A stretch of 64,000 nucleotides of DNA from Rhodobacter capsulatus (lineage in GTDB: Bacteria; Pseudomonadota; Alphaproteobacteria; Rhodobacterales; Rhodobacteraceae). Every line of letters begins with the position of its first letter. Positions within the stretch are counted from its first letter, which is position 1. A model generated the notes under the pieces. It saw only the letters and a list, made by a program, of their open reading frames with translations. It ran no database searches and had not been told where the DNA came from. Shown piece after piece: positions 35,186 to 45,988 of the stretch. A program made the translations under genes and the position numbers. Where the stretch lies: contig NZ_QKZO01000007.1 of NCBI RefSeq assembly GCF_003254295.1, positions 1-64,000 on the forward strand, read 5' to 3'.

Positions 35186-35304
35186 CGCGAGGCCAAGCTA
35201 TTGTTTTTTGGCTGATCGCGCTGTTTTTATTGAGGCCGTTTCGACTGTCTCGCAAAGGTGTTTCAGGTTCGCCCAGTTCAATGAACCGCCGCGCGCTTCG
35301 TAAA

Positions 35305-35359
35305 CGCGCACCGGATTGCAAATCCGTGAAGACCGGTTCGATTCCGGTGGTCTGCACCA
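35305..35359 (+). pseudogene. 3' fragment of a tRNA (Cys anticodon GCA); probable attachment site
   Basis: The sequence has an anticodon loop TTGCAAA (GCA at 35318-35320), a T arm ACCGG-TTCGATT-CCGGT, acceptor 3' strand GGTCTGC, A, and CCA at 35357-35359. The required 5' acceptor GCAGACC does not occur upstream, so the 5' half is missing or replaced. It lies 137 nt before the integrase start, the classic place for attL. Confidence 0.55.
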
Positions 35360-35496
35360 GTGTCGTGTTGCATGCCGTCTCATGTTGACTCTGCGCCCCG
35401 GGAAATCTCAACGCCACAAAGATGTAATTGTCTCAAGGTGTTGCGGGTGATACCCCTGCACCGCATCGACAATGTGGGGCCAAGTGTGGGGCTGAT

Positions 35497-36705
35497 ATGG
35501 GGGCAAGGGACAAGCTGACGGCGGTCAAGATCCGGGCCGCGGCGCCGGGGCGATATGGCGACGGCGCCGGGTTATACCTCGACCGCACCGAGGACGGCGG
35601 AAAATGGCTTTACCGTTATACGATCGCCGGGCGGCGCCGCGACATGGGGCTGGGCTCTCTCGATGCCGTGACCCTCGCCCAGGCGCGCCGCGAGCGTGAT
35701 CGCTGGGCCGCGGTGCTTGCATCCGGCCGGGACCCGATCTCCGAGCGGGCGCGCGAGAGGGAGGCCGCGGCAACGCGCGAGGACCCGTCGCTGTCGGATC
35801 TTGTCGACACCGTCTTTGGCGCGATCAAGCACACGCTCAAGGGTGAGGGGGAGGCGGGGCGCTGGATGTCGCCGCTGCGCGTCCATGTGCTTCCGAAGAT
35901 CGGCACGCGCCCGGCATCATCGCTCCGGACCGCCGATTTCGTGCGCGTGCTGCAGCCGATCTGGCGCACGAAGCCGACGGTCGCCGAGAAGGCCTATTCG
36001 CGGCTCAACCTCTGCTTCAAGAAGGGCAAGCGCATCGGCTATGCCGTCGACTCCGACACGCTGGCCGCGGCGCGCGAGCTGCTGGGGGATCTGCACATCG
36101 AGCCCGAGCATATCGCCGCGACGCGCTGGCAGGATGCCCCGGCGCTGTTCACGCGGCTGGCCGGGGATACCTCCGGGCTGATGTGCCTGCGCCTGCTGCT
36201 GCTGACCGCCGTCCGGGGGGATGCGGCCCGGGGCGCGCGTTTCAACGAAATCGACGGCAGCCTGTGGATCGTGCCGAAAGAGCGCGTGAAGGGGCGGCTG
36301 AAAGCGGCCACGGATTTCCGCGTCCCGCTTTCGTCCCAGGCGCTTGCCATCGTGGCCGAGGCGCGGCGGCTCTCGAACGACCCCGAGACCGGCCTGCTGT
36401 TTCCGGGCGATCGCGGCGAACCGATCAGCCAGAATGCGCTGCTGAAGGCGATCAACAAGATCGGCGAGGCGGGCAGGCCGCACGGCTTTCGCACGACATT
36501 CCGAACCTGGGTGCAGGATACGCTGGACGGCTCGCACGATCTGGCGGCAGAGGCGGCGCTTGGCCACGTCATCGGCAACAAGGTGCGCCGCGCCTACGCC
36601 AGATCCGACTACCTCGACCAACGCGCCGCGCTCATGCAGCGGTGGGCGGACTATGTGACCGGCGAGTCGGCGCAGGTGGTGCAGCTGAGGCCAAGCGCGG
36701 GCTGA
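35497..36705 (+). CDS. int: P4-type tyrosine site-specific integrase
   Basis: Catalyses integration and excision at a tRNA-type attachment site. The N-terminal DUF4102 domain starts ARDKLTAVKIRAAAPGRYGD with GLYLDRTEDGGKWLYRY. The catalytic core has the first Arg in LLLTAVRGDAARG, HGFRTTFRTW (HxxR), LGHVIGNKVRRAYARSDYLDQR (second His and the tyrosine nucleophile). About 402 residues from the ATG at 35497; an in-frame upstream start at 35428 is unlikely. This integrase family is typical of genomic islands, P4-like satellites and some prophages. It keeps the high GC of the chromosome, unlike the genes after it. Confidence 0.93.
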   Translation: MGARDKLTAVKIRAAAPGRYGDGAGLYLDRTEDGGKWLYRYTIAGRRRDMGLGSLDAVTLAQARRERDRWAAVLASGRDPISERAREREAAATREDPSLSDLVDTVFGAIKHTLKGEGEAGRWMSPLRVHVLPKIGTRPASSLRTADFVRVLQPIWRTKPTVAEKAYSRLNLCFKKGKRIGYAVDSDTLAAARELLGDLHIEPEHIAATRWQDAPALFTRLAGDTSGLMCLRLLLLTAVRGDAARGARFNEIDGSLWIVPKERVKGRLKAATDFRVPLSSQALAIVAEARRLSNDPETGLLFPGDRGEPISQNALLKAINKIGEAGRPHGFRTTFRTWVQDTLDGSHDLAAEAALGHVIGNKVRRAYARSDYLDQRAALMQRWADYVTGESAQVVQLRPSAG

Positions 36706-37229: not shown

Positions 37230-37751
37230 TTGCTTAGCAGCCTAGCCCGCCTTGCTCTGACTGCCACGGCGATCGCGCCCGTTGGGTTCACATATGCATT
37301 CGTCGCCGCCTTCAACCGGGCGTGGTCAACAATGATGTGGCTATCGCTCGGCTCAACGATATTGGTTGTGTTGTGCCTGTGGGTTCTCAAGGCAATCCGC
37401 TCCAGGCGCGCCCCTGCCGCTGAGCGACACAGGATCACCACGGTGGAACCTGCCGACAGAGAGAACATGGCGATTATGCTCTTGTATCTCTTGCCGTTGT
37501 TTACGGCTGATTTCGGAAAATTGAACTGGATAATGTGGGTGCCCACGATTGCGATCTTCGCATTTATCGCCGTTACCAGCCACAGCTACTTTTTCAACCC
37601 CCTGCTAGGTGCGTTCGGCTGGCACTTCTACCGTGTCGGTACCCCACAGAACGTCACCAGCATCTTAATTACCAAGCGGACGATCCGCAAAGGTGACCAG
37701 ACGATCAACGGTATCGAGCTGGGGGACTATGTGATTCTAGAAACGGAGTAA
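37230..37751 (+). CDS. kwaA: Kiwa anti-phage defence protein KwaA (membrane subunit)
   Basis: A 173-residue membrane protein with four likely TMs: about residues 4-27, 32-52, 79-96 (MAIMLLYLLPLFTADFG) and 101-118 (WIMWVPTIAIFAFIAVTS). These are followed by a cytosolic tail (GTPQNVTSILITKRTIRKGD). The TM layout and the LLYLLPLF segment fit KwaA, and the gene ends 3 nt before an unmistakable kwaB. Translation must begin at the TTG at 37230 or later, because an in-frame TAG lies at 37224-37226; AAGG upstream supports it. Called mainly on topology plus linkage. Confidence 0.78.
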   Translation: MLSSLARLALTATAIAPVGFTYAFVAAFNRAWSTMMWLSLGSTILVVLCLWVLKAIRSRRAPAAERHRITTVEPADRENMAIMLLYLLPLFTADFGKLNWIMWVPTIAIFAFIAVTSHSYFFNPLLGAFGWHFYRVGTPQNVTSILITKRTIRKGDQTINGIELGDYVILETE

Positions 37752-37754
37752 CTA

Positions 37755-38624
37755 ATGCCGAGAACACTTTTCGCACTTTGCAATCATGACGGGCAGACGG
37801 TCGTGCGTCGTGTCCCATTGGAAGACGGCGTGCAGGGCGACGTCGAAAGGATCTTCGACGAACAGGAACAATCATTTTTCCTCGGTAAAGATGAACCGAT
37901 TGAGTTTAATGGCGATTGGAAGCCAGATGAAAATCAGCTGCTTTGCATCACTGACAGAGATCTTCTTGCTCAAATGAATGAGACGTTGGCCATCGGGGCG
38001 GGGGCATACGACCGTTTGGACATCAGCAGTTATGATACAGCCGGGGTCAAAGCGCTGTTCATGCATTCCGAGCAGATCAAAGGGCATATTCTATTGCAGA
38101 AGTTTCGCACATCCCAGTACCTGCAACGCAAGGGTCTGACGCTGGCGTTTAACGGCAACCAGTTTGGCAAACTATCAGAGCGAGGGTTTTCGCTGGATGA
38201 AAGGCTGGGCGCTGTTGTTGACGGCGACACCGTAATGTTTGTCAGCTTCCACGTGCTGCGGTCTATCTTGACGGTTCAAGAGCATTTCGCCGAAGCGACC
38301 GCTCAGGAAGTCGACGAATTCGCACAACACGCATCTTTTCATATCGAGAACCGAGCCGTTTTCGACAGCCACATGGATGAGCGCTGCCGAAAATTGATTC
38401 GAGGCATCAGTAAATCGAGAGTCCTAGTCGATCACAATGCTGCGGAGATCATCGCTAGGGCAAAAACCGTAGGACTTACGCTGGTGGAAGACGGTGGTCG
38501 CATTGTTCTTCCGTCCGTGAAGCGCGACCTGAAAACGGTCCTCAGCTTCTTGGAGGAAAGCGTCTACAAGGGAGTCTTTTCTGAAGAAACTTTCTTGACC
38601 AACTCAAAGCGCCCCTTGGCCTGA
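37755..38624 (+). CDS. kwaB: Kiwa anti-phage defence protein KwaB (DUF4868)
   Basis: A 289-residue soluble protein of the DUF4868 family. The core segment ILLQKFRTSQYLQRKGLTLA, then GKLSERGFSLDERLGAVVDG and VMFVSFHVLRSILTVQEHF, follows the family pattern closely. In Kiwa the membrane protein KwaA and KwaB form a complex that blocks phage DNA replication and late expression. KwaB is normally about 310 residues, so this one is essentially full. GC is lower than in the flanking chromosome. No other member of the operon follows. Confidence 0.88.
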   Translation: MPRTLFALCNHDGQTVVRRVPLEDGVQGDVERIFDEQEQSFFLGKDEPIEFNGDWKPDENQLLCITDRDLLAQMNETLAIGAGAYDRLDISSYDTAGVKALFMHSEQIKGHILLQKFRTSQYLQRKGLTLAFNGNQFGKLSERGFSLDERLGAVVDGDTVMFVSFHVLRSILTVQEHFAEATAQEVDEFAQHASFHIENRAVFDSHMDERCRKLIRGISKSRVLVDHNAAEIIARAKTVGLTLVEDGGRIVLPSVKRDLKTVLSFLEESVYKGVFSEETFLTNSKRPLA

Positions 38625-39345: not shown

Positions 39346-39858
39346 TCAACTCACACGCACTACGCCACTTTTGAGGAAGACGGCGAGATCAGCGACAGTC
39401 GAGAAAATCTCGTCAGGATTTGACGCTTCCAGACCTTGTATGTCACCGCATCCCCAAGCTGAGCCCAAGGCCATGACCCCAGCGCCGCGAGATGCTTCCG
39501 TATCCTGCGGCTGATCACCGACGTGATAGGTGTTCTCAGGACTGGCGCCTGCCTTCGACATAGCCAGAAGCAAGCCTTCCGGGTCCGGCTTTTTGTTTTT
39601 CACTTGATGATAACCCACGACGATGTCGATGGGCCACTTGTGTGCTCTTATGAATGCCTTAGGCACCATGTCGGGGCTTTTCGTGACGATGGCGAGGGTA
39701 TGCCCTGAGGCATGTAGCTCGCTGAGTAGCTCTGTCATGCCCTCATAAACGGGCAGTTGAGGCGCCTTCGCCATCACGGCTTTCCAGTTCCGTGCAGCCC
39801 TCAACTGCTCGACCGAGGACGTGTCGACGAGCGTCTGGTCGAAATCGAAGATAATCAT
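39346..39858 (-). CDS. HAD-family phosphatase, third gene of the PRTase-DprA operon
   Basis: A 170-residue HAD hydrolase with all four motifs: IIFDFDQTLVDTSS (nucleophile Asp), IVTKSPDM (motif II Thr), a Lys near VKNKKPDPEG (motif III) and HVGDQPQDTEASRGAG (motif IV acids). The cap is small, as in phosphoglycolate-phosphatase-like members. Its ATG follows the DprA-like stop by 1 nt, so all three genes must be translated together. The likely substrate is a small phospho-compound, perhaps a nucleotide or phosphoribosyl product of the first gene. Confidence 0.88.
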   Translation of the reverse strand: MIIFDFDQTLVDTSSVEQLRAARNWKAVMAKAPQLPVYEGMTELLSELHASGHTLAIVTKSPDMVPKAFIRAHKWPIDIVVGYHQVKNKKPDPEGLLLAMSKAGASPENTYHVGDQPQDTEASRGAGVMALGSAWGCGDIQGLEASNPDEIFSTVADLAVFLKSGVVRVS

Positions 39859-39859
39859 G

Positions 39860-40822
39860 TCAAAAGTCCATCGAGATTTGAGATTTTCCAGTCCCTACGG
39901 GGAATTCCGTGGGCGCCGATTTATCAATGGCTTTCACACTGTTTAGAAAAGCAAGGAGGGCGTGACCGTCCGCAATCGGCACCGCCCAATTCTCCGCGAT
40001 GAGCATCTGATTTCCCTGCGTTTTCGGCTCGTGACGCCACGACTGCGGGTGATCGATGCAGGCGAGCGCACGTTTCTGCTCGCGAGAGAAGCGGATGGTG
40101 TGCATCGTTCCGCCCTTCACGTCGGTTTCTATAACGAGGACCGCATCGGAAAGGCCGCTTTGGATGCGGTCACGCTCCGCGAATGCGGAACGCATCGGTG
40201 TCATTCCAATCGGATACTCGCTCACGAGGCACCCGCCCGCTTCCAGCAGGCGGCTCGCAAGACCGCGGTTCGCGGCGGGATACACCTTCTCTAATCCGTG
40301 AGCCATCACGGCGACGCCGACGCCGTTTTGATCCAAGCAGCCCTCATGGCCGAGAGTATCGCAGCCATGGGCCAAGCCACTGACCACAACAAATCTCTGC
40401 TCGGTGGCTGTAGCGGCAGAGCGCCTTGCTACCTTTTCACCGTAGGCCGTGGGGTCGCGAGTGCCGATCACGGCGACGCTATGTGCTGCGTGCAATCCCG
40501 ACGAGTCCCCCTTAACATAGAGGATTGCGGGAGGATCGGGCATATGGCGCAGGCGCTCTGGATAGCTTTCATCGTAGAAGGAAAACGCCTTGATGCCGCT
40601 ATCGATGGACCGTTGGAGGTTATCCTCCGCCTTACTCCATGCGTCAGCGAAGTCGATATTCGAGATATTGCCTACGCGGGCCAGCTCGGCGATCTGATCG
40701 CGCGCGCTCCCGGCCTCTAGCGGGCTTCTGATTATCCGCAGAGCTGCGCGGCGCCCGATCCCCTTGAGGTTCAGCAGGGCCGCAAGGCCAATAGTGGACG
40801 GAGTGATAGCTGCCTCGTTCAT
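39860..40822 (-). CDS. DprA/Smf-like (SLOG superfamily) protein of a defence operon
   Basis: 320 residues. An N-terminal helix-hairpin-helix (LLNLKGIGRRAALRII) is followed by the DprA Rossmann domain: VAVIGTRDPTAYG, VVVSGLAHGCDTLGHEGCL, VAVMAHGLEKVYPAANRGL, CLVSEYPIGMTPM, FAERDRIQSGLSDAVLVIE, GGTMHTIRFSREQKRALACI. The usual C-terminal winged-helix is absent. Chromosomal dprA works in transformation; this copy sits in a defence-rich island between a phosphoribosyltransferase and a HAD phosphatase (3-nt and 1-nt gaps). A DprA plus phosphoribosyltransferase pair is, as I recall it, an established anti-phage system (Rst_DprA-PPRT). Confidence 0.9.
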   Translation of the reverse strand: MNEAAITPSTIGLAALLNLKGIGRRAALRIIRSPLEAGSARDQIAELARVGNISNIDFADAWSKAEDNLQRSIDSGIKAFSFYDESYPERLRHMPDPPAILYVKGDSSGLHAAHSVAVIGTRDPTAYGEKVARRSAATATEQRFVVVSGLAHGCDTLGHEGCLDQNGVGVAVMAHGLEKVYPAANRGLASRLLEAGGCLVSEYPIGMTPMRSAFAERDRIQSGLSDAVLVIETDVKGGTMHTIRFSREQKRALACIDHPQSWRHEPKTQGNQMLIAENWAVPIADGHALLAFLNSVKAIDKSAPTEFPVGTGKSQISMDF

Positions 40823-40825
40823 GGA

Positions 40826-41512
40826 TCAGACCTTCGAGTTCTTTTGGGCATGTTCGTTCTCGCCTTGCTGCCACAAATTGTCCCAGCTGGCGGGAACGTG
40901 GTCATTATCAGGGTTCGGACAATAGGCTACGCGCTCGGATTTCGCGAGCGCAATTCCATAGACAGTGCTGCCAGGGTTGGCGGCATGGATAGCCAACGCA
41001 ACTCGCGAAAGTGTGTCGCCTCGTGTTACGATATCATCGAAAATCACGAAGGTGTTTGTCTGCATTTTCGCTGCTTGGTAGTTTGCCTTGTCCAACTCAG
41101 CTGATCGCGCGCTGGCGTCATAGATATTATGAATCTTCTGATGGATGTTCTTGGCAAGTGACGTGCTGCTATAGTTGGCGCCGCAAACGCCGGCGCACTC
41201 CTTCGTCATCCAGCATATCGATCTGTTAGGGTTTGCTTGCGTTTCACCCGACGAGAGGACGGGCAGAAACATGGTCTGGTGCATATTGAGGCCGAGATGC
41301 TTCATCAGCGCGGGCACCGCTTCGTACATCACCGTCGCCGCGCCCCACTCCGCCTTGTTCTCCTTGTTCTTGAATCGGTTGAAGCGCGAGGTCCAATGCT
41401 CGCCAGTCTTATCCTTCAGCCTGTAGGCGATGGTGTAAGTTGCAGTCAGGCCGTTGGACATACTTAGCCGCGGAAACTCCATCCAACCTGAAACGCTCTT
41501 GTAATAAATCAT
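40826..41512 (-). CDS. phosphoribosyltransferase-like protein of a DprA-linked defence operon
   Basis: A 228-residue protein whose PRPP-binding loop is clear: FVIFDDIVTRGDTLSRVALA (two acids, TRGDT). Near the N-terminus it has ATYTIAYRLKDKTGEHWTSR; a cysteine cluster lies in SICWMTKECAGVCGANYSS and near ERVAYCPNP. It resembles ComF/type I PRTases rather than a housekeeping purine or pyrimidine enzyme. GAGGG precedes the ATG at 41512. It is first in the three-gene operon, so it presumably makes or consumes a phosphoribosyl compound tied to the DprA-like partner. Confidence 0.82.
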   Translation of the reverse strand: MIYYKSVSGWMEFPRLSMSNGLTATYTIAYRLKDKTGEHWTSRFNRFKNKENKAEWGAATVMYEAVPALMKHLGLNMHQTMFLPVLSSGETQANPNRSICWMTKECAGVCGANYSSTSLAKNIHQKIHNIYDASARSAELDKANYQAAKMQTNTFVIFDDIVTRGDTLSRVALAIHAANPGSTVYGIALAKSERVAYCPNPDNDHVPASWDNLWQQGENEHAQKNSKV

Positions 41513-44180: not shown

Positions 44181-45020
44181 TCAGATGATGAGGTCCAGAG
44201 GAAGGTCCGCGATATCTCGGAGACGCTGGCCATCGATCATGGTTTCGACCAGTTCCAGGGTTTCCCGGTCTTGTTCGCGCAGAGTCTCCACCAATTCGGG
44301 GAGCGCAAAGTGATAGACGCAGTCCATGTCGCCCGTTCCCAACGCGATGGCCGCGATACGTGAAGGAGTTGGCTCGGCGGTGACGGCGACGATATGGGGC
44401 AACCGGCCCTTTCGGTTCCTGACAAGGTTCAACGCTTCTGAACGCGTGTTCTGCACGCGGTCGGAACGGATTGTCAGCTTGCAGCTGATCGACGCGTGCA
44501 GGCTCGCCTGCACGCCATTGGCCTCGCGCAGCGCAGTGTGTCTTGCGACCGTGTCATCCACTAGGAGCTGCTGCCTGTTGATGTTGGCGTCGGGTTCAGG
44601 TCGGCGCAAGACGACGACGTCGGGCTTGATGAGGTAGTCCGTCCCGAGAAGGGTCCGCAGTTCCTTGTTCTCGATCGCAAGGGAGCGAAGGGCGTCGAGA
44701 TGGCTGTACTGGTCGAACTGCGAGATTGCCTGCCCCCTCTCGACCGCAAAGGAGCCGGGGCGCAGATGCAGCAGTTGCGCGAAACAGGACGCGACGAAGT
44801 TCTGCGTAGCGGTTTCGAACATCGCCCCCGCCGTCTGCCCCGCGGGTTTCGCGGCATGGCTCTTGCTCGCGCCGATCTTCGCCACCAATGCTGTCGCTAT
44901 ATCCCGACTTGGGCGATTGGACACGTCGGCAATCGACGGAACCCCCTTCGTTTCAGTGATCGGGCCAGCCAGACATTCGGCATGGAACTTGCGACGGGCT
45001 TCAAGCAACCAAGGCCGCAT
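44181..45020 (-). CDS. NgoMIV-type type II restriction endonuclease (predicted site GCCGGC)
   Basis: A 279-residue enzyme very close, as I recall it, to NgoMIV along its length: SNRPSRDIATALVAKIGASK, PGQTAGAMFETATQNFV, SHLDALRSLAIENKELRTLL, GTDYLIKPDVVVLRRP, LHASISCKLTIRSDRVQNTR and EALNLVRNRKGRLPHIVAVT. The active site is the D of TDYLIKPD plus the SCK lysine, as in NgoMIV; the RSDR segment contacts the CCGGC part of the site. It overlaps its methylase by one base (TGATG), ensuring co-expression. Confidence 0.93.
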   Translation of the reverse strand: MRPWLLEARRKFHAECLAGPITETKGVPSIADVSNRPSRDIATALVAKIGASKSHAAKPAGQTAGAMFETATQNFVASCFAQLLHLRPGSFAVERGQAISQFDQYSHLDALRSLAIENKELRTLLGTDYLIKPDVVVLRRPEPDANINRQQLLVDDTVARHTALREANGVQASLHASISCKLTIRSDRVQNTRSEALNLVRNRKGRLPHIVAVTAEPTPSRIAAIALGTGDMDCVYHFALPELVETLREQDRETLELVETMIDGQRLRDIADLPLDLII

Positions 45021-45988
45021 CAGGCCACCGCATGGAAGCGACGCGCCGTGATCGCTTTGCGCAAGTTCTGCGCGACGGCACGGGCCACCGGGGGCGGGAA
45101 GGCATTTCCGACCTGGCGATATGCCGCCGTCTTGCGGCCGACAAATTGCCAGTCATCGGGGAAGCCCTGCAGCCGCGCAACCATGCGGACAGTCAGGCGG
45201 GGGACGCCCGCAAAGCCCGGCTCGGGGGCGTCTTCGGCAATGGTATGGCCGTTCACCCCAAGGGTCGCCCAGGCGCGTTTGGCGCGGGTCGGCCCGAGAT
45301 CCGGCCCGCCGTGTTTCTTGGAACCGCCAACGATCGTGGGGGCGATTTCGTCAGCCTGTGCAGCCCAGGCATCGGCGCCCTCCCAGCCATTCGCGCCCAT
45401 GAGGTCACGCAGGCGTTCTCCGACGGTTGGGGGGCGCATGTCGCTCCCCTTGGGCCATTCGAACTTGTCGGCGTATCGATCATGGACCGCGACGATCACG
45501 ACACGCGGCCGCAATTGGGAGACGCCGAAGTCCGATGCATTGAAGAGGTGCCATTCGGCGAAAGTGTAGCCCAGGGCTCGCAACTGGGCCTTCAGTTCCT
45601 GCCGGTAGTCATGGAAGACGGCATCCAGAAATCCGCGGACGTTTTCGAGCATCACGGCTTTCGGGCGCACCTCATCCACCACACGGATGGCAGACGGGAA
45701 GAGGTCGCGTTCGTCGGCGGCCCCGAGTTGCTTGCCTGCCTTCGAAAACGGTGGGCAGGGGACGCCCCCCGCTACCAGATCAACCCCCGCATAAGGACGC
45801 GCATCGAACTGGGTCAGGTCGGACTGAGGGCCTTCGAGGACGTTCCAGCATTTCCGGTTCAGGTTCAGTGTCTTCCGACACCAGTCATCCACTTCGACAC
45901 AGGCCTGATGGGCGAAACCCGCCTGCTCGATGCCAAGCGCTTGCCCACCTGCGCCCGCGCAAAGTTCCACAGATGTAAGTTCACCCAA
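45020..45988 (-). CDS. C5-cytosine DNA methyltransferase, partner of the NgoMIV-type enzyme
   Basis: 322 residues with the standard m5C motifs in order: VELCAGAGGQALGIEQAGF (I), GVPCPPFSKAGKQLGAADER (IV, catalytic Cys), AVMLENVRGFLDAV (VI), FGVSQLRPRVVIVAVHD (VIII), a target-recognition region, and QVGNAFPPPVARAVA (X). It starts at TTG (45988), preceded by AGGGAAGG at a good distance. The methylase is upstream of the nuclease, so protection is made first. Methylation of GCCGGC is inferred from the nuclease. Confidence 0.94.
   Translation of the reverse strand: MGELTSVELCAGAGGQALGIEQAGFAHQACVEVDDWCRKTLNLNRKCWNVLEGPQSDLTQFDARPYAGVDLVAGGVPCPPFSKAGKQLGAADERDLFPSAIRVVDEVRPKAVMLENVRGFLDAVFHDYRQELKAQLRALGYTFAEWHLFNASDFGVSQLRPRVVIVAVHDRYADKFEWPKGSDMRPPTVGERLRDLMGANGWEGADAWAAQADEIAPTIVGGSKKHGGPDLGPTRAKRAWATLGVNGHTIAEDAPEPGFAGVPRLTVRMVARLQGFPDDWQFVGRKTAAYRQVGNAFPPPVARAVAQNLRKAITARRFHAVA

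Follow-up and report, generated by a model that had tools for sequence, protein, structure and literature searches.

A three-gene ShosTA-type locus with a free-standing, motif-complete HAD hydrolase in a defence island of Rhodobacter capsulatus

In Rhodobacter capsulatus (contig NZ_QKZO01000007.1, positions 1 to 64,000; this whole stretch of 64,000 nucleotides is referred to as the window), genes for a phosphoribosyltransferase (PRTase), a DprA-like protein and a HAD hydrolase follow one another closely, which raises the question of whether the three form a single anti-phage system and what the HAD hydrolase contributes to it. A preliminary description had reported a PRTase with an intact loop for binding phosphoribosyl pyrophosphate (PRPP), a DprA-like protein without a winged helix and a complete HAD phosphatase, separated by only 3 and 1 nt, and had regarded DprA with PRTase as a recognised anti-phage pair to which the HAD was foreign. 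Membership of the trio in ShosTA is well supported by our analysis. We further propose, with a probability of roughly 0.55, that it is a three-gene ShosTA-type anti-phage toxin-antitoxin, in which PRTase and HAD would together make up a toxin, split between two genes and using PRPP in two steps, that DprA would hold in check. Judged by sequence comparison, the DprA-like protein is ShosA, and the other two proteins correspond to two parts of ShosT: the PRTase to its catalytic C-terminal part, and the free-standing, motif-complete HAD to the N-terminal domain that has decayed in the solved P2-phage ShosT. The chemistry of the HAD, the direction of its effect, the trigger and the docking on the sliding clamp are what we infer beyond this.

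The packing of the genes was confirmed (frames of 228, 320 and 170 amino acids, with 3 nt between PRTase and DprA-like genes and 1 nt between DprA-like and HAD genes; Table 1), as were the intact PRPP loop and the complete set of HAD motifs. Comparison with PADLOC, which had been suggested as a check, named the DprA-like protein and the PRTase ShosA and ShosT and not housekeeping homologues, and with the neighbouring defence genes this bears out the recognised pair in a defence island. The DprA-like protein matches the ShosA model PDLC03961 over residues 7-260 (243.4 bits, 7.7e-73), and its closest solved structures are the ShosA entries 9vzo (9.4e-29) and 8zva. It scores below the NCBIfam cut-offs for housekeeping homologues (TIGR00732, 177.9 bits vs 191.15; PRK10736, 163.4 vs 495), and a separate dprA of 396 amino acids is present elsewhere in the same genome. 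Pfam PF02481 covers residues 75-280 (9.1e-60), only 40 residues remain after it, and the Pfam list for the protein contains no winged-helix model. The lack of a winged helix thus stands; it is not remarkable, since the PADLOC ShosA model, at 303 positions, is just as short and the lack is normal for ShosA.

The PRTase matches the PADLOC ShosT model with an E-value of 2e-9, and the locus has the ShosT-type PRTase adjoining a ShosA-type DprA that is expected of ShosTA. Its PRPP loop is found in the context FDDIVTRGDT, and library scans of the protein gave PRTase matches only, with no RecQ-like helicase joined to it. A zinc ribbon formed by its cysteines was considered and rejected, as these are not conserved. 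At E 1e-5 the ShosT model is unspecific, because it also matched control genomes that carry ComF: 284 of 398 genomes were matched, including 9 of 14 controls, with ComF-bearing genomes among these. Two matches stood out in that scan, L006 and L007.

In the HAD all four motifs were found (D5, D7 and T9; T59; K90; G114-D115 and D119), giving the DxDxT, T/S, K and GDxxxD pattern of the HAD superfamily, and model and fold matches agree with this. The motifs are complete in 15 of the 16 trio loci compared, the exception being a frame break in L091. In that locus, from a Bryobacterales metagenome-assembled genome, the HAD gene is split in two frames (L091 4969-5523), by decay or assembly error. In a wider set that includes fusions (Bradyrhizobium, Pf phage, Escherichia coli plasmid, Priestia, Deinococcus) the residues are complete in 11 of 13 rows, and the HADs of L082 and L097, judged by eye, are intact too. 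The HAD is also the best-conserved protein of the trio, as measured by identities only, because in the analysis of nonsynonymous and synonymous substitution rates (dN/dS) the synonymous sites were saturated and most dS values undefined. Its best profile matches are small-molecule phosphatases, and it falls below the cut-offs of pyrophosphatase equivalogs (NCBIfam PpaX, 71.7 bits vs 218; InDiPhoBT2121, 33.1 vs 245). The PADLOC scan gave the HAD a weak generic hydrolase match (0.0073) and raised no HAD model belonging to ShosTA; defence callers overlook this one component of the trio. HAD domains are recurrent in defence systems, and the available part of a 2026 paper (PMC13092281) states that HAD function there is unknown.

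The view that the HAD is foreign to the known system had to be given up. The DprA partner of phage P2_4C9 (L048, 424 amino acids) scores 973 bits against the PADLOC ShosT model PDLC03012, aligns over 100% to the ShosT of PDB 8zvb with no difference, and by Pfam consists of an N-terminal HAD domain and a C-terminal PRTase domain. The profile of the window HAD aligns to residues 30-159 of this ShosT, in which FSIADVV stands at motif I and GRSQED at motif IV, so that the catalytic aspartates are gone; the counterparts of D5, D7, T9 and D115 are lost both here and in the G640 fusion (L006). The record of Pf phage PfAC02a (OR790968, L046, Pseudomonas) already annotates ShosT as HAD/PRTase. ShosTA itself and the HAD as an annotated fused domain of ShosT are therefore known already, and what is new is a free-standing HAD that keeps its catalytic residues. 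The literature searched, which did not include the main ShosTA paper (Pu et al. 2025), gave no account of a free-standing HAD in ShosTA or of a clamp motif in ShosA. The name Rst_DprA-PPRT, used in the preliminary description, we take to denote the DprA-PRTase system of P2-like phages. Among the fusions, eight join HAD to PRTase and one joins HAD to DprA (L044). The latter, from Deinococcus (L044 3359-4777), has no PRTase match in its stretch of 8.6 kb and a coiled-coil protein as upstream neighbour, while an E. coli plasmid carries, next to DprA, a protein (L043 4888-8796) in which fused HAD and PRTase precede a stretch annotated as RecQ helicase.

Genome contigs were scanned with the DprA alignment alone as query, and the 32 loci obtained were then submitted to domain searches. 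The order PRTase-DprA-HAD is found in all 12 loci with a DprA identity of at least 53% (L083-L094), at spacings of -8 to +16 nt between PRTase and DprA and of -4 to +3 nt between DprA and HAD. The remaining loci are a HAD-PRTase fusion beside DprA (L097), a DprA-PRTase pair without HAD (L095), a DprA with no partner (L096) and 17 dprA loci presumed to be housekeeping (L098-L114), which have neither partner. By tblastn the same trio is present on three rhizobial plasmids, of Rhizobium (L037), Sinorhizobium (L038) and Agrobacterium (L036/L039, where the DprA gene runs across the record start), and more distant trios occur on plasmids of Hymenobacter (L040, HAD unannotated) and Segatella (L042). 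On the Segatella plasmid three consecutive open reading frames (ORFs) resembling PRTases lie ahead of DprA and HAD (L042 1805-3773). Co-occurrence in other genomes, which had also been proposed as a check, is thus observed, and because the same order and spacing recur in 12 of 12 loci and on three rhizobial plasmids, the arrangement is more than chance. The trio reaches several families and the Acidobacteriota (L091).

Among the 40 of 68 plasmid HAD matches listed, 23 have E-values up to 1e-15, and in 22 of these 23 records a DprA match adjoins the HAD by coordinates; the one exception is a HAD relative (36%) beside cas1-cas2, without DprA, on a Cyanobacterium plasmid (L045 3965-4486). The trio is sparse: when 385 genomes of the same class were searched, the 30 best ShosA loci included a single HAD, that of the window, and the other 29 comprise 7 DprA-PRTase pairs without HAD, 2 loci with DprA only (L056 and, at the end of a contig, L059) and 20 that are presumed housekeeping or unclear. 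A scan of genomes with a single DprA sequence gave no match, nor did viral scans with the PRTase and with the HAD; the viral scan with the DprA alignment gave one locus, L082. Query P0003 matched its own genome and two weak partial sequences (33-36%) in 293 relatives, and by tblastn had no match in phage records.

A DprA tree of 46 rows with an arbitrary root was built, leaving off duplicates of the window (L003, L060), genes split at a record start (L036/L039), the loci L050, L051, L056, L059, L078 and L096, and all but 9 of the presumed housekeeping rows. One supported branch (95/81) parts 27 rows from 19. On the larger side are 26 HAD-linked rows (17 with separate HAD, 8 PRTase-fused, 1 DprA-fused) and the HAD-less L095; on the smaller side are the 9 presumed housekeeping DprAs and 10 HAD-less DprA-PRTase pairs. 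This topology suits a single origin of the HAD link, after which fusions and splits would have followed and the active site of the P2 type would have decayed.

The trio can be compared with several known systems. With the ShosTA of P2-like phages (PDB 8zvb-8zvd, 9w2p, 9w2q; ShosA 9vzo, 8zva) it shares a ShosA without winged helix, a PRTase with PRPP loop, a HAD-like component, there within ShosT, and a Q-based C-terminal tail of ShosA. It differs in that HAD and PRTase are two genes and not a fusion, in the order PRTase-DprA-HAD as opposed to DprA followed by fused HAD-PRTase, and in the intact HAD motifs. The PfAC02a system likewise combines an intact HAD with PRTase and DprA and, like the trio, is adjoined by KwaB-KwaA; its HAD and PRTase, however, form one protein of 478 amino acids with C-terminal zinc ribbons. 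PsyrTA/RqlHI also pairs a DprA-like antitoxin with a PRTase-bearing toxin, whose toxicity requires the PRTase active site according to the part of PMC4670107 available, but it carries a RecQ helicase that the window PRTase lacks. In the bipartite ribofuranosyltransferases (gPRT with a HAD phosphoribose phosphatase, as in CriT-CrpP of the Haemophilus influenzae type b capsule) PRTase and HAD are again paired: in capsule and O-antigen synthesis, as described in the available portions of PMC10299916 and PMC11127046, the PRTase adds ribose 5-phosphate from PRPP and the HAD phosphatase then removes the phosphate. Their acceptors are glycans and they have no DprA; the likeness drawn here is one of reaction scheme. 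Ter-type modules, too, combine PRTases and HAD phosphoesterases, for which synthesis of a nucleotide signal has been proposed (PMC7824862, available part), whereas no Ter genes were found among the genes scanned beside the trio.

We propose that the DprA-like antitoxin would bind DNA and restrain the PRTase; binding between RqlI and RqlH has been shown by others. At replication forks its tail would attach it to the sliding clamp, and a phage that disturbs replication would abolish the restraint. The PRTase, to judge by its intact PRPP loop, would then put a phosphoribosyl group from PRPP on an acceptor, and the HAD would act in the same direction, either stripping the 5'-phosphate from the product or removing the released pyrophosphate, and so make the step irreversible. 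Disturbance of the nucleotide pool and DNA damage, effects reported second-hand for ShosT, would stop the cell. In the available part of a review (PMC12593503), which likewise reports at second hand, ShosT is a PRTase and pyrophosphatase that interferes with purine metabolism and brings about duplications of DNA, filamentation and cell death; ShosA binds DNA, and T7 Gp0.7 is a trigger. We favour a split two-step toxin because of these reports on ShosT together with the PRTase-HAD ribosylation known from capsule and O-antigen.

The docking step is suggested by the end of the DprA-like protein, QISMDF. In the trio clade a variable linker is followed by Q-x-x-[M/L/F]-x-F, and 14 of 16 DprAs match (exceptions L088 and L091), as does that of L082, when searched with the hexamer Q..[LMIF].[FL], a pattern written after the tails had been seen. 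The pattern occurs in 0 of 37 presumed housekeeping DprAs and in 6 of 404 other ORFs of at least 200 amino acids. Presumed housekeeping DprAs (L062-L081, L098-L114) were assigned by length (mostly at least 354 amino acids), taxonomic background and lack of partners and not by a winged-helix scan; L078 (290 amino acids) is excluded from the 37. Canonical ShosA ends in TQQLSLLGDE, and the 8zva construct stops ahead of that tail; the DprAs of L041, L049 and L095 have the tails QMSML, QLNMF and QLSVMDF. No such tail was seen in the ShosAs of HAD-less pairs or in those of the E. coli plasmid and Pf phage. According to the part of PMC9690074 available, clamp-binding peptides have the C-terminal consensus QL(S/D)LF but vary widely, and QISMDF is only a relaxed, hexameric form of such a motif. 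On this basis the tails of the trio clade may bind the sliding clamp.

Several observations weigh against a split toxin. The toxicity, enzyme activity and defence of the trio are predictions from its genes and island context. In sequence the PRTase matches P2-type ShosT only weakly (hhalign, 20.8%), its fold is nearer to ComF, and the fold matches of the HAD point to no single substrate. Since canonical ShosT works with a HAD that has lost its catalytic residues, HAD catalysis is not required in all members. Among the 10 best ShosA loci of the 385 class genomes, 7 are HAD-less ShosA-PRTase pairs, and such pairs occur also in SopEPhi (L047), L007, L010 and L095. The tree places L095 on the HAD side, and on it the P2-type pair and several other rows have long branches.

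The HAD might instead be an off-switch that dephosphorylates or degrades the PRTase product and protects the host, in keeping with the hypothesis of the preliminary description that the PRTase makes a signal, the DprA-like protein binds it or DNA and the HAD removes it. Its complete phosphatase motifs, its tight coupling to the antitoxin gene in the 12 loci and the HAD-DprA fusion of L044 would be expected of such an enzyme; eight fusions, however, tie HAD to PRTase, the solved ShosT retains a decayed HAD on the toxin, and in many loci DprA and PRTase manage without one. The fusion count fits a shared reaction better than a HAD opposing the PRTase, and we hold an off-switch to be unlikely. Rather less likely still is a HAD that acts on the PRTase mainly as a scaffold or regulator and whose chemistry, as in P2-type ShosT, can be dispensed with. 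The P2 ShosT and G640 fusion lack D5, D7, T9 and D115, and a P2-hotspot DprA-PRTase system still protects against T7 and lambda (PMC9122126, available part), but a scaffold does not account for catalytic residues kept in nearly all trio loci and most rows of the wider set, or for the HAD being the best conserved of the three.

We consider it improbable that the HAD is a 3'-phosphatase which repairs DNA ends in DprA-guided recombination and so rescues the host. A weak PNK3P match (Pfam PF08645, 7.3e-4, under its cut-off), a reduced cap that would admit a large substrate and the statement in the available part of PMC12593503 that ShosA acts through recombination speak for it, yet the top profile matches are small-molecule phosphatases and the fusions are mostly to PRTase. 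That the genes are unrelated housekeeping genes or a chance cluster is very hard to credit. The PRTase fold is near ComF and the DprA and HAD families are universal, but DprA scores under the curated cut-offs, a distinct housekeeping dprA exists in the same genome and the trio recurs in conserved order across families and into Acidobacteriota, and on these grounds the housekeeping reading was rejected.

The trio sits in a defence island (Table 1) whose G+C content at ~37-45 kb is 0.53-0.60, as against at least 0.65 in the surrounding window. RmrA and RmrT, directly upstream of the trio, are a toxin-antitoxin-type pair; a Pfam search of RmrT gave no match. An ORF of 322 amino acids after the NgoMIV-type enzyme (both within 44181-45988, minus strand) resembles by eye a cytosine methyltransferase. 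No convincing attachment direct repeats were found in the island flanks. On the left flank, homology to two genus members ends at ~35185, a stretch of 42 nt near 35307-35348 reappears, at 98-100%, in the match lists of most genus members, and ~35186-35348 is a possible attachment site. Among 60 ORFs flanking L083-L094 there are one KwaB and four protein kinase matches, serine/threonine kinases lying beside several trio loci, and such a kinase is also annotated beside the Sinorhizobium trio (L038 3524-4561).

Table 1. Features of the trio and of the surrounding island (window coordinates)
Feature	Position	Strand	Remarks
PRTase gene (ShosT catalytic part)	41512-40826	minus	228 aa (amino acids)
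PRPP-binding loop DDIVTRGDT (residues 159-167)	41012-41038	minus	DD, TRG, T invariant in 16/16 trio loci
DprA-like gene (ShosA)	40822-39860	minus	320 aa, without winged helix
DprA-like C-terminal tail QISMDF	39863-39880	minus	putative sliding-clamp-binding motif
HAD hydrolase gene	39858-39346	minus	170 aa, catalytic motifs complete, reduced cap
HAD motif I DFDQT (nucleophile D5)	39832-39846	minus	D, D, T in 16/16 trio loci
HAD motif IV GDQPQD (residues 114-119)	39502-39519	minus	complete in 15/16 trio loci
Integrase-like gene	35428-36705		at one edge of island
KwaA-KwaB (Kiwa) pair	37230-38624	plus	PADLOC; flanks trio
RmrA	43155-41959	minus	PADLOC; flanks trio
RmrT	44072-43185	minus	PADLOC; flanks trio
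NgoMIV-type restriction enzyme	45020-44181	minus	3.3e-99; flanks trio

A wider reading, which we hold only tentatively, is that DprA, PRTase and HAD systems form one broad defence superfamily of two-step, PRPP-dependent ribosylating toxins, each with a clamp-tethered antitoxin that would free the toxin when a phage takes over the replisome, and that P2-type ShosT is derived, its HAD having decayed. As the HAD of the trio is separate from the PRTase and keeps its active site, the two enzymes can be deleted or mutated separately. The DprA tail, for its part, offers a concrete and quickly testable link of a ShosA-type antitoxin to the replisome, and this link, if true, would explain how ShosA-type systems could sense phage replication.
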